A DNA stretch of 35,482 bases from a virus. The stretch is taken from positions 1 through 35,482 of the IMG/VR virus record IMGVR_UViG_3300023181_000023; one strand, 5' to 3'. How positions within the stretch are numbered: the first letter of the stretch is position 1; every line of letters starts with the position of its first letter. Of the stretch, positions 3,445 to 33,869 are shown piece by piece. A program made the position numbers and the translations under genes. The notes under the pieces are model-generated. The model ran no database searches, was not told the origin of the DNA, and saw only the letters and a program-made list of their open reading frames with translations.

Positions 3445-3473
3445 TTGACTTATTGCATCGCTTGTGCTAAAAT
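3445..3473 (+). promoter_or_regulatory. Promoter with shared 14-bp operator, ahead of the late region
   Basis: The -35 TTGACT (3445-3450) and -10 TAAAAT (3468-3473) are separated by exactly 17 bp. The operator ATCGCTTGTGCTAA (3457-3470) fills most of the spacer and overlaps the -10. The same 14-mer, in either orientation, occurs in the promoters at 29205, 32511 and 33610. Confidence 0.85.
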
Positions 3474-3479
3474 ATAGTA

Positions 3480-9223: not shown

Positions 9224-9490
9224 ATGAGCGAAGTATTTGAATCACCAACCGGAGAACTAGAAACAACAAGTAACGACCCTAAGCTAAAGTATGTCATTAC
9301 TCAAATTAACGAGATGGGCTCTATTATTCGCCGCAACGAGGTAGATATTTTTATTAACCAAGATATTAAATGGCTTCCCTACGAGCAAGAAGGTGTTGAT
9401 ACTCAATTAAAGACACTTGAAAAAGAAAACGAGAAGCTTCACAAGGCTGTTGCTTCCCTCAAAAAGCTTAAAGCTCAACTAGAAGCGTAG
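9224..9490 (+). CDS. Coiled-coil hypothetical protein (88 aa)
   Basis: AAGGAG lies seven bases upstream of the ATG. The C-terminal half (about 55-88) has heptad-like spacing of Leu in a Lys/Glu-rich helix, so it is likely to oligomerise. It could be a minor head or head-completion protein given its position after the capsid gene, but the family is not recognised. Confidence 0.65.
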   Translation: MSEVFESPTGELETTSNDPKLKYVITQINEMGSIIRRNEVDIFINQDIKWLPYEQEGVDTQLKTLEKENEKLHKAVASLKKLKAQLEA

Positions 9491-9511
9491 TATAATAAAA
9501 TAACGGACGGA
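9491..9511 (+). promoter_or_regulatory. Late-leader promoter 1
   Basis: TATAAT (9491-9496) is followed eight bases later by GGACGGA (9505-9511), then a purine-rich Shine-Dalgarno and the start at 9527. It is one of five sites sharing a -10 and this leader motif. No good -35 is visible. Confidence 0.55.
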
Positions 9512-9526
9512 TTAAGAGGAGGATTT

Positions 9527-27758: not shown

Positions 27759-28358
27759 TTATATCACTAAAGATTTGCGTAGTTTGATATTTTCTCTCAA
27801 CTGGTCATCTCTTTCAGTACATGCTCTAGTGAAAAGGTGAAGATATACAGAAGCTGAATGACTATTTTTATGTAGTGAATAGCTTTTCTTAACAATTTCT
27901 CCAGTATCTAAGTTGTAAACTCCGTAATACTTTATCCCCCTTAACAGTTCCTTAGCAAGTTCAACAAGTTCTGTTGGTACAGCAAAATAAAACCTATTGG
28001 GACGAAACATATATTCCATATTGCTATAGTCTTTTACCTGCTCAACAAGATAGTGATGATGCTTTGCGATTTTAGTTCTAGAAAGTTTTGTATCTTTAGT
28101 TACAAGGTTTCTCCCAATAAAATCTAAATTATTAGAGAATACTGCGTTATTATCCAGTGCAAATGTGATAGCCTTAACTTCGCCAATCAAATCATACTTT
28201 GAACACTTAATTTCGTACTCAATAATTTCACCATTCCATTTAACTGCTATTGCATCTGCATTCCAAGTATTAACAACTTCTTCAATAACCCCAGCGTAAA
28301 CACTGTTAAACCCAAATGCTCTATCTTTAATTAATTGCTTTGCTTTTTTGCTATCCAT
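27759..28358 (-). CDS. PD-(D/E)XK nuclease-like protein (199 aa)
   Basis: After an N-terminal helix, residues 33-54 read NADAIAVKWNGEIIEYEIKCSK, in which Asp35 and the E49-I-K51 pair match the core of the PD-(D/E)XK nuclease fold: Asp on one strand and Glu-x-Lys on the next. A later conserved-looking helix with KHHHYLVEQVKDY follows. This could be a DNA or repair nuclease that processes phage DNA, but it lies in a different operon from RecT. The C-terminal third is of unknown fold. It overlaps the gene upstream by 8 bases. Confidence 0.6.
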   Translation of the reverse strand: MDSKKAKQLIKDRAFGFNSVYAGVIEEVVNTWNADAIAVKWNGEIIEYEIKCSKYDLIGEVKAITFALDNNAVFSNNLDFIGRNLVTKDTKLSRTKIAKHHHYLVEQVKDYSNMEYMFRPNRFYFAVPTELVELAKELLRGIKYYGVYNLDTGEIVKKSYSLHKNSHSASVYLHLFTRACTERDDQLRENIKLRKSLVI

Positions 28359-28641
28359 TAGATTTTTTCATTTCTTCTTTTAATAACCACCCAAATAATG
28401 AAGCTGGTTTTTTGCCTTGTTTTGCCATACTTGCCACAGCACTGTACTTTTGCTCACCGAGTGTCTTAAAAGCCTTACAGTACCATGCTGTCATATCGTT
28501 AGGTTCCATTGTGGATACTAACCCTCTACCTATTGTTAGAGCCCTTTCCTGAATATCTAAACTAGTTAACTTGTTACTAGTAACTAGTTCTTCTAGTTTC
28601 TGTTTCCTAGTAACTAGTTCTTGAGAGAGGTCATGAATCAT
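28351..28641 (-). CDS. Hypothetical protein with internal DNA repeats (96 aa)
   Basis: This is the first gene of the minus operon. The N-terminus repeats ELVT twice (ELVTRKQKLEELVTSNKL). The C-terminal half (AWYCKAFKTLGEQKYSAVASMAKQGKKP ... LFGWLL) looks like a compact helical domain, somewhat like the C-terminus of replication or DNA-binding proteins, but I do not recognise a family. Its 5' coding sequence carries six CTAGT copies. AAAGGG is ten bases upstream of the ATG. Confidence 0.55.
   Translation of the reverse strand: MIHDLSQELVTRKQKLEELVTSNKLTSLDIQERALTIGRGLVSTMEPNDMTAWYCKAFKTLGEQKYSAVASMAKQGKKPASLFGWLLKEEMKKSNG
28562..28622. repeat. CTAGT repeat cluster, possible iterons
   Basis: CTAGT occurs six times within 57 bp (28562, 28577, 28584, 28593, 28607, 28614), and a 16-bp unit, CTAGTAACTAGTTCTT, is repeated at 28577-28592 and 28607-28622. 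The centre contains the palindrome GTTACTAGTAAC. It lies inside the coding start of the 96-residue gene, like lambda's origin inside O, so it could be an origin or operator. The repeat may also reflect the repeated ELVT residues. Confidence 0.5.
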
Positions 28642-28660
28642 ACTTTAAAAACCCTTTCAA

Positions 28661-28674
28661 CGGTTAATAACCCG
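28661..28674. promoter_or_regulatory. Palindromic operator-like site upstream of the minus operon
   Basis: CGGTTAATAACCCG contains the 11-bp perfect palindrome GGTTAATAACC. It lies 20 bp upstream of the ATG at 28641 on the minus strand, so it could bind a dimeric regulator. I could not place a convincing promoter next to it. Confidence 0.4.
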
Positions 28675-28720
28675 AATTGTTGTGTTCGTTTATTGGAAAG
28701 TCGGCCGACTACATTAATTT

Positions 28721-28860
28721 ATGATAAAAAGAAACTCCCCAAAACTGGGGAGTAGCTACTACGTCACCTCTAAATATACATGAGTGTGATTAATAATGCA
28801 ATCCCTAGTCTGGTGTTTCCAGTAGCAAGGCTTACACTATTTGACGTAGTAGCTTGCTAA
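28721..28860 (-). ncRNA. Structured small RNA 1 (about 140 nt)
   Basis: The unit runs from a consensus promoter at 28867-28895 to a strong terminator. A perfect 13-bp stem (plus-strand arms AGCTACTACGTCA, 28754-28766, and TGACGTAGTAGCT, 28842-28854) closes a 75-nt loop. Inside, AGTGT pairs with ACACT and a small CTGG/CCAG hairpin sits at the tip. It has no ribosome site or ORF. The function is unknown. The long closing stem and its own promoter argue for a real gene. Confidence 0.75.
28734..28753 (-). terminator. Terminator of small RNA 1
   Basis: On the minus strand, ACTCCCC and GGGGAGT form a 7-bp stem with a 6-base loop, followed by TTTCTTTTT. It directly abuts the 13-bp closing stem of the RNA. 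Confidence 0.9.
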
Positions 28861-28866
28861 GAAATG

Positions 28867-28895
28867 ATTATAAACCGTAAACATAATAAATACAA
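28867..28895 (-). promoter_or_regulatory. Promoter of small RNA 1
   Basis: On the minus strand, TTGTAT (28895-28890), a 17-bp spacer and TATAAT (28872-28867). It lies directly downstream of the terminator of small RNA 2, so the RNA is expressed on its own. Confidence 0.82.
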
Positions 28896-28898
28896 GCC

Positions 28899-28928
28899 CA
28901 AAAAAAGAACGTCCGGGGCTGCCGGACG
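28899..28928 (-). terminator. Terminator of small RNA 2
   Basis: CGTCCGG (28910-28916) and CCGGACG (28922-28928) form a perfect 7-bp GC-rich stem with a 5-base loop. On the minus strand a TTCTTTTTTT run follows. Confidence 0.9.
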
Positions 28929-29041
28929 GACTAATGTTTGTTTAAAGTATGTACCCAGTTGTTTAAAATGAAGGTATATATGATTACTAAAGAACGAGCA
29001 ACTCGCGTGGTGTCCCTACTTCTAAAGGGGAGAGTTGTTAT
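28899..29041 (-). ncRNA. Structured small RNA 2 (about 140 nt)
   Basis: Between its promoter (29048-29076) and its terminator (28910-28928), the RNA can form a stem CAACTC/GAGTTG (arms 28999-29004 and 29032-29037), with an inner CCC/GGG pair. The 3' two thirds are less clearly structured and AT-rich. There is no ORF with a ribosome site on this strand. The fold is weaker than those of RNAs 1 and 3, so the evidence rests chiefly on promoter and terminator. Confidence 0.6.
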
Positions 29042-29047
29042 GCTTCT

Positions 29048-29076
29048 AGATTACAGCTAAGCTTAAGCTTTTACAA
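29048..29076 (-). promoter_or_regulatory. Promoter of small RNA 2
   Basis: On the minus strand, TTGTAA (29076-29071), a 17-bp spacer and TAATCT (29053-29048). It lies directly after the terminator of small RNA 3. Confidence 0.7.
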
Positions 29077-29083
29077 TAGAGAA

Positions 29084-29113
29084 ATAAAAAATAGCGCCGG
29101 TGGGGACGCTATT
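29084..29113 (-). terminator. Terminator of small RNA 3
   Basis: AATAGCG (29090-29096) pairs with CGCTATT (29107-29113), loop of ten bases. The minus-strand continuation is TTTTATTTC, giving a T-rich tail. Confidence 0.82.
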
Positions 29114-29166
29114 AGTTCGTTACGAGGCAAAGGGTTCACATCAATAAACAAGAATATCCTCGTAAC
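29084..29166 (-). ncRNA. Structured small RNA 3 (about 85 nt)
   Basis: GTTACGAGG at the 5' end pairs with CCTCGTAAC (plus-strand arms 29158-29166 and 29119-29127), a perfect 9-bp stem with a 30-nt loop, followed at once by the terminator stem. It starts from a promoter that is back-to-back with the RecT promoter. No ORF is present. The loop could hold an antisense or protein-binding site. Confidence 0.72.
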
Positions 29167-29172
29167 AGATAC

Positions 29173-29201
29173 AGTGTAACATGAAATTATCTTTACTCCA
29201 A
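29173..29201 (-). promoter_or_regulatory. Promoter of small RNA 3
   Basis: On the minus strand, TTGGAG (29201-29196), a 17-bp spacer and TACACT (29178-29173). It is back-to-back with the RecT promoter, so one regulator could affect both directions. Confidence 0.65.
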
Positions 29202-29204
29202 CTG

Positions 29205-29233
29205 TTGCATTAGCACAAGCGATAGTGTACAAT
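29205..29233 (+). promoter_or_regulatory. RecT operon promoter with shared operator
   Basis: TTGCAT (29205-29210), a 17-bp spacer and TACAAT (29228-29233). The operator TTAGCACAAGCGAT (29210-29223) starts on the last base of the -35 and runs into the spacer. The leader (AAAAGGAGCACATCAA) closely resembles those of the 32511 and 33610 promoters. Confidence 0.85.
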
Positions 29234-29261
29234 TAGGGTATAAACAAAAGGAGCACATCAA

Positions 29262-30173
29262 ATGCCAACACTTATAGAAATTAAACAAGATATAAAAGAA
29301 TCTTTGAGTGGTATTAAAGAACCATTTGTAAGTAAGTTTTTATCTTACTACGACGATTCAGCAAGGCTTGAACAGGGAAAGAATAGTAAAGGGTATGATA
29401 AACCCAAGACTGTCAGTTCACAGCCTATAGAAGTACTTTCAGGGCTTGTAAAAAAGTTCTATAACCTCGGTTTACCAATTGACGGCGTGAACGTCGTTAT
29501 TACCGGTAAGAATATGGCTATGGTTACCTACAACGGATATAAAAACAAAGTACTTGAAACCTACCCAGAAACAGAGTTTGATGTACAGCTTATCCGAGAA
29601 GGCGATACTTACAGCTTTGCGAAAGAAAGCGGTTCAGTTATTTACTCACACAATGTGGGTGACCCATTTGCAGAAAATGAACCAGCAATTAAGGGTGCGT
29701 ACTGTGTTATTAAAAACAAACGTGGTGAGTTTCTTGAGACGTTAAACCTTAACGATTATAAAGAAATGAAAAATGCTAGTAAACAATCGGCATTGTGGGA
29801 TAAATGGTCAAGTGAGTTTTGGCTTAAATCAGTTATTAAACGTGCTTGTAAGCGCCACTTCAACGATATTGTTTCTGATATTGATAAAGTTGACAATGAA
29901 GATTTTGGCTTATCTGACGAAATTGTAGACCGAAGTGGGCCAAAAGAAAAATGGCAACCCCGTTCCGATGAACCAATGAGCGATACTCAGAAGGAAATTC
30001 TTGATAATCAACTACGTCAACGAAGTATAACTACAGACGATGAAAAGAATAACTGGATGTGGGATAACTATGGTGCTGGATATGATTCACTCACCGAGGA
30101 ACAGGCTGCTGCGGTTATGAGTGATTTAGAAGCTGAATATAAAGAAGGTCGCAAAAATGAGCAAAAAGCCTAA
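29262..30173 (+). CDS. recT: RecT-family single-strand annealing protein
   Basis: RecT anneals single strands during phage recombination and replication. The N-terminal region has a typical mixed fold; the family-defining part is GAYCVIKNKRGEFLETLNL ... NASKQSALWDKWSSEFWLKSV ... RACKRHF (about 145-207), where the Trp/Lys pattern and the KSVIKR helix match RecT. The C-terminus is a polar, acidic tail, which often carries SSB- or nuclease-binding sites. The promoter at 29205 is directly upstream. It overlaps the next gene by 17 bases. Confidence 0.85.
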   Translation: MPTLIEIKQDIKESLSGIKEPFVSKFLSYYDDSARLEQGKNSKGYDKPKTVSSQPIEVLSGLVKKFYNLGLPIDGVNVVITGKNMAMVTYNGYKNKVLETYPETEFDVQLIREGDTYSFAKESGSVIYSHNVGDPFAENEPAIKGAYCVIKNKRGEFLETLNLNDYKEMKNASKQSALWDKWSSEFWLKSVIKRACKRHFNDIVSDIDKVDNEDFGLSDEIVDRSGPKEKWQPRSDEPMSDTQKEILDNQLRQRSITTDDEKNNWMWDNYGAGYDSLTEEQAAAVMSDLEAEYKEGRKNEQKA

Positions 30174-32510: not shown

Positions 32511-32539
32511 TTTACAATAGTTATCGCTTGTGCTAATAT
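32511..32539 (+). promoter_or_regulatory. Promoter with shared operator, upstream of tandem RNAs
   Basis: TTTACA (32511-32516), a 17-bp spacer and TAATAT (32534-32539). The operator ATCGCTTGTGCTAA is at 32523-32536, immediately 5' of and overlapping the -10. Confidence 0.85.
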
Positions 32540-32567
32540 AAATACATACCCAAAAGGTAGTACATCA

Positions 32568-33609: not shown

Positions 33610-33638
33610 TTGCATTATTAGCACAAGCGATGTACAAT
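33610..33638 (+). promoter_or_regulatory. Early operon promoter with shared operator
   Basis: TTGCAT (33610-33615), a 17-bp spacer and TACAAT (33633-33638), with the operator TTAGCACAAGCGAT at 33618-33631. It drives the early operon from 33669 through the circular join to 3441. The leader resembles those of the other operator promoters. Confidence 0.85.
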
Positions 33639-33668: not shown

Positions 33669-33869
33669 ATGACACACATCGAAGTACAATATAACGATAC
33701 GCCAGTAAAAGTAGCAGTGAAGCTTCACGCATCAGATGGCAGTGGCTACACAGTAGTAAGCGGTATGAGCGCACTAGCGAACAGGATTATCAGTAACATG
33801 ACACCAGCACAGAAAATTCAATACGACTTCTACCAAGGTCAACTAAACCGTGTACGGAAGGAATACTAA
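33669..33869 (+). CDS. Small hypothetical protein (66 aa)
   Basis: First gene of the early operon, with an AAAAAGGA site. The N-terminus is beta-rich (HIEVQYNDTPVKVAVKLHAS), the C-terminus helical. Being the first gene of a regulated operon, it may have a control or host-takeover role, but there is no recognisable domain. Confidence 0.6.
   Translation: MTHIEVQYNDTPVKVAVKLHASDGSGYTVVSGMSALANRIISNMTPAQKIQYDFYQGQLNRVRKEY

Follow-up and report, generated by a model that had tools for sequence, protein, structure and literature searches.

Small RNAs are known in few phages, and their genes are seldom annotated. The lambda pR'-6S RNA and the HK022 put RNAs are terminated leaders or antitermination RNAs. 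Phage-encoded base-pairing sRNAs include lambda PreS, VP882 VpdS and lambda OOP (reviewed in PMC12197685), and the structured phage RNAs c4, manA and wcaG were found by comparative genomics (PMC2864571). The window analysed here is the whole stretch of 35,482 nucleotides of the virus record IMGVR_UViG_3300023181_000023. Between recT and a divergent operon it appears to hold, with a probability of roughly 0.55, a cluster of three short, terminated, non-coding minus-strand RNAs that act in trans, here called RNA1, RNA2 and RNA3. The support found in the sequence consists of the terminators, the folds, the RNA1 promoter, a covarying RNA1 stem and synteny in a second phage.

The cluster lies in a 620-bp gap (28642-29261) flanked by a minus-strand operon and recT. 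The recT gene (29262-30173, plus strand) encodes a RecT-family single-strand annealing protein (PF03837, E 1.3e-10) and has a promoter, TTGCAT-17-TACAAT (29205-29233, plus strand), divergent from RNA3. A second copy of this promoter sequence, 80% identical, is found elsewhere in the window, upstream of an ORF at 33669. On the other side of the gap, 3' of RNA1, a 96-aa gene with no assigned function (28351-28641, minus strand) heads the operon. The original prediction saw no ORF in the gap, and no credible one was found there on the minus strand. Of the minus-strand frames of at least 20 aa, just one lies within the gap: it is a TTG frame of 53 aa and reads across terminator 3. A second TTG frame, of 31 aa, overlaps with the beginning of recT. 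There is no minus-strand gene upstream that the three terminators could end, recT being on the opposite strand.

Two palindromes occur in the gap. A perfect 12-bp palindrome, AGTCGGCCGACT, at 28699-28710 between terminator 1 and the minus-strand operon, is a candidate operator, and AAGCTTAAGCTT is found at about 29059-29070 between terminator 3 and RNA2. The motif TAGCACAAGCGAT is repeated at promoter-like sites (29205-29233, 33610-33638, about 3453-3478 and 32515-32544), and the related phage described below has GCACGACCGTGATATTAT at three plus-strand sites, recT included (G001 2758, 4106 and 36917). These motifs probably represent a phage-specific repressor operator or a promoter class.

Each of the three minus-strand units was predicted to end in an intrinsic terminator, and this was borne out. 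Terminator 1 (28734-28753, minus strand) has an 8-bp stem and a T-run; terminator 2 is at 28910-28928 and terminator 3 at 29090-29113 (both minus strand). By strict criteria three minus-strand terminators are present in the 620 bp, compared with a shuffle mean of 0.028, and at least three were found in none of 1000 shuffles. The whole 35-kb window has nine such sites on both strands, three of them in the gap. The T-run of all three hairpins is on the minus strand. An RNA explains this, and also the -35/-10 sequence conserved at the 5' end of RNA1; neither is explained if the hairpins are DNA-level elements, that is, origin, recombination or protein-binding sites near recT. Such a role is most improbable, even with a recombination gene adjoining the locus and the palindromes AGTCGGCCGACT and AAGCTTAAGCTT close by.

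The closest relative found in the RecT search is IMGVR_UViG_3300030339_000122 (locus L003), with a RecT that is 88% identical. The two phages have few other genes in common: there are nine blastp pairs, among them TerL at 48%, and no portal match was found between them. Upstream of recT in the relative the three units recur in identical order and on the same strand. Each unit was aligned to its counterpart and judged against 1000 shuffles. RNA1 gave a score of 53 (shuffle mean 23) and was better than all 1000 shuffles; the conserved block of RNA2 scored 59 (mean 20) and RNA3 41 (mean 23), with 0/1000 shuffles as good in either case. The stretch that carries the RNA1 promoter has a marginal likeness (26/1000 shuffles as good). 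The spacer between RNA3 and RNA2 (175/1000) and the DNA downstream of RNA1 (730/1000) are at chance level. Since the units beat all shuffles while the spacer and the downstream stretch do not, the conserved stretches coincide with the RNA units, and on these alignments conservation is confined to them and the RNA1 promoter. The sequence of the terminator stems is largely different in the relative, yet all three can still fold: terminator 1 has another sequence with the fold kept, the stem sequence of terminator 2 is replaced with the hairpin kept, and the stem of terminator 3 still folds.

Two further observations were made in the relative. About 800 bp upstream of its RNA cluster (L003 1560-2340) are without a long ORF and may hold more RNAs. 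Direct repeats of GGGCTTCCGTG(A/G)GGG-type units are found at L003 4165-4303, in a gene downstream of recT at the contig end.

RNA1 (28734-28860, minus strand; about 125 nt, with an inferred 5' end) is a long hairpin followed by the terminator. The fold z is -6.8 for the unit with its terminator and -6.3 for the body alone, compared with a lowest value of -3.2 among 178 other 120-nt windows of the genome. The perfect 13-bp closing stem of the original prediction is exact (28854-28842 / 28766-28754), the 5' arm AGCTACTACGTCA (28842-28854, minus strand) pairing without exception with the 3' arm TGACGTAGTAGCT (28754-28766, minus strand). The hairpin has a 25-nt bulge on the 3' side. In the homologue of the relative (L003 2486-2355, minus strand) the closing stem is formed by GTCATCTGTCA/TGACAGATGAC. 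All 11 aligned pairs of the stem are standard in both phages, and five of them have changed, each with double compensation. Because these five pairs are changed on both sides with pairing kept, the covariation is direct evidence that the stem is under selection as RNA. RNA1 very probably exists as an RNA, of a kind absent from the catalogues, and as a member of the proposed cluster of small regulatory RNAs it is strongly supported.

The 3' side of RNA1 contains the sequence TTGCAT-17-TATATT (28773-28801, minus strand), which stops just 5' of the 3' arm of the closing stem; TTGCAT-16-TATAAT is found at the equivalent place in the relative. It may function as a promoter within RNA1, or it may be RNA that only resembles a promoter. 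A likeness to the phage's own promoter at 33610, with 19/29 positions alike, barely more than the genome background of 18, was rejected. In both phages the 3' strand carries, immediately ahead of the closing stem, -35-like and -10-like sequences separated by 16 or 17 nt, as it would if RNA1 were a 6S-like mimic of an open promoter that sequesters RNA polymerase. In such a mimic the apical stem would contain TTGCAT, the unpaired 3' strand of the bulge would carry TATATT/TATAAT, and the closing stem would correspond to the downstream duplex. This is unlikely, since neither the window nor the relative gave a match to the Rfam 6S model up to E 5-10, and since the bulge of the window's RNA1 is one-sided, with 0 nt on the 5' side. 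The closing stem of the 6S architecture is present, but the complete arrangement of closing stem, two-sided bubble and apical stem was not found. RNA1 is also shorter than 6S, its apex is only weakly paired in the relative, and the letters TTGCAT/TATATT may simply be a DNA promoter. It is somewhat less likely still that RNA1 mimics the open promoter with a literal -35/-10 of the phage's own promoter type and so ties up the host RNA polymerase.

The conserved block of RNA2, TCATATATAC...CTGGGTACA..CTTTAAACAAACATTA (28932-28983, minus strand), has a possible -10 at the 5' end, followed by an unpaired tail. RNA2 is unstructured before its terminator (fold energy 0) and the unit as a whole has a fold z of -2.3. 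The conservation runs from the possible minus-strand -10 to the minus-strand terminator. These boundaries are at odds with a reading of the same stretch on the plus strand, in which it would supply a short peptide encoded upstream of recT with its start codon and ribosome-binding site. Good SD-ATG pairs are present in the window (GAAGGTATATATG) and in the relative (GAAAGGTGAGTATATATG), but the conservation ends at the ATG, the peptides, of 26 and 18 aa, are dissimilar, and no consistent plus-strand promoter precedes the stretch. The peptide is therefore considered very unlikely. By its anatomy, a conserved unpaired segment with a replaceable terminator, RNA2 looks like a base-pairing regulator, and as a member of the proposed cluster it is well supported. 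An 11-nt exact complementarity to the operon start (TTTAAAGTATG, 28639-28649) has no parallel in the relative and was rejected as a target. Prediction of targets, which had been proposed as a check, was done as duplexes with phage gene starts and gave no target consistent between the two phages.

RNA3 (29084-29168, minus strand; about 85 nt, with inferred ends) has a hairpin and a terminator. The 9-bp closing stem that had been described for it is likewise exact (29166-29158 / 29127-29119). The fold z is -5.0 with the terminator and -5.5 without it, again compared with a minimum of -3.2 in the 178 other windows. The body has no significant fold in the relative (z -0.1), so the evidence for the structure of RNA3 comes mostly from the window. 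Both RNA1 and RNA3 resemble stable structured RNAs, and RNA3 is a moderately supported member of the proposed cluster.

The original prediction also gave every unit a -35/-10 pair at 17-bp spacing, placed each promoter directly after the preceding terminator, and saw in the locus an array of independently controlled sRNAs. These claims hold for RNA1. Its sigma-70-type promoter P1, TTGTAT-17-TATAAT (28867-28895, minus strand), agrees with the consensus at 9/12 positions; the counterpart in the relative, TTGTAA-17-TATAAT, is at the equivalent position and agrees at 10/12. From -35 to -10, 24 of the 29 positions are identical between the two phages, as counted on the alignment. The P2 region (TTGCTC-17-TATACC) and the P3 region have a best score of 7/12, and shuffles average about 7.5. 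The putative P3, TTGGAG-17-TACACT (29173-29201, minus strand), is thus at chance level; at the aligned position the relative shows a -10 of TATAAT but lacks a -35. The proposed P2 (29001) is about 90 bp past terminator 3. The three-unit array is supported by its conservation in the relative, but because P2 and P3 score at chance level, independent control is supported for RNA1 only. Of the features expected of a small regulatory RNA, a terminator is present in all three units, an own promoter was recognised in RNA1 only, and conservation as RNA was found in one relative.

The weak P2 and P3 are compatible with the strongest rival explanation, in which the units are aborted leaders of the minus operon, their terminators are read through under antitermination, and RNA1 is a control element. 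The operon start (28641) is 93 bp below terminator 1, no clear sigma-70 promoter could be read in the sequence between them, and in both phages the last terminator is followed at similar distance by a minus-strand ORF with an SD-like sequence. In the relative this ORF, after terminator 1, is of about 38 aa and begins MATCTACGTGG. The sequence below RNA1 is not conserved, however, as 730/1000 shuffles align as well, and the downstream ORFs (96 aa and about 38 aa) are unrelated, the 96-aa protein having no blastp match in the relative. A leader would be expected as an RNA unit ahead of a conserved downstream operon; here the downstream genes and sequence differ. Three stacked terminators with dissimilar RNAs also exceed a single leader. 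As the downstream genes are not common to both phages, the leader explanation is weakened and is regarded as possible but doubtful.

The database searches returned no family for any of the units. At the gathering score none of the 4227 families of Rfam 15 matched in the whole window or in the locus of the relative, and relaxed thresholds gave nothing credible in either. A weak match to GcvB in the relative (E 0.04) was below gathering, is absent from the window and was rejected. The gap had no blastn match in phages and plasmids. For RecT, tblastn in phages and plasmids and scans of genome contigs found none, while the core search in viral contigs gave 32 loci. The cluster is absent next to recT in all relatives with RecT at most 75% identical and with readable upstream DNA; it is therefore recent, fast-evolving or often lost. 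DNA-pattern scans with the RNA1 and RNA2 motifs returned the known relative and chance matches only. With a stem-plus-terminator descriptor applied to 122 loci, a stem of at least 11 bp was found only in the window phage and the relative.

A further phage with a RecT (G002, 9485-9520) matches the RNA1 apex over 17-18 nt; this match falls at the start of a gene, lacks a closing stem and a terminator, and was rejected. The recurring sequence, CTGGAAACACCAGACTA of the apex (L072 1501-1546, G002 9485-9524; RecT 75% identical), is due to chance or is a recombination remnant.

In the preferred explanation, three short, terminated, non-coding RNAs with predicted ends would be transcribed separately from the minus strand and would most likely act in trans during infection. 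RNA1 (about 125 nt) and RNA3 (about 85 nt) would be structured RNAs closed by a stem, and RNA2 (about 65 nt) would consist of a terminator hairpin preceded by a conserved 5' segment that is single-stranded. RNA2 may pair with mRNAs via this segment; the stable structures of RNA1 and RNA3 may serve to bind a protein or to expose a loop.

The three-unit cluster is known from two genomes only, in both from sequence alone. Judged on this basis it is real but of an ordinary sort, a set of small phage RNAs from undescribed families, clustered with unusual neatness. RNA1 is backed by comparison, since its stem covaries and its promoter is conserved, and it has two companions in fixed order. The three units can serve as exact probes in northern blots or RNA-seq, and they suggest that phages in environmental data carry RNA families so far undescribed.

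The locus shares features with each of the known systems. With the lambda pR'-6S and HK022 put RNAs it has in common a promoter, a structured RNA, a terminator and a same-strand operon in sequence; the differences are that here the RNA units and not the downstream genes are common to both phages, and that three units are consecutive. RNA1 resembles bacterial 6S RNA (RF00013) in being a stem-closed hairpin with promoter-like letters in a bulge, but it has no covariance-model match, is shorter, has a one-sided bulge and is phage-encoded. As for c4, manA and wcaG, a structured non-coding RNA was detected by comparing phage sequences, in this case without a match in the window among the 4227 Rfam 15 families at gathering score. 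No sequence relation to PreS, VpdS and OOP was found, and the units here are three in tandem. What is shared with those sRNAs is a short phage transcript (predicted here), an intrinsic terminator, an intergenic position and, in RNA2, the form of an unpaired segment joined to a terminator.
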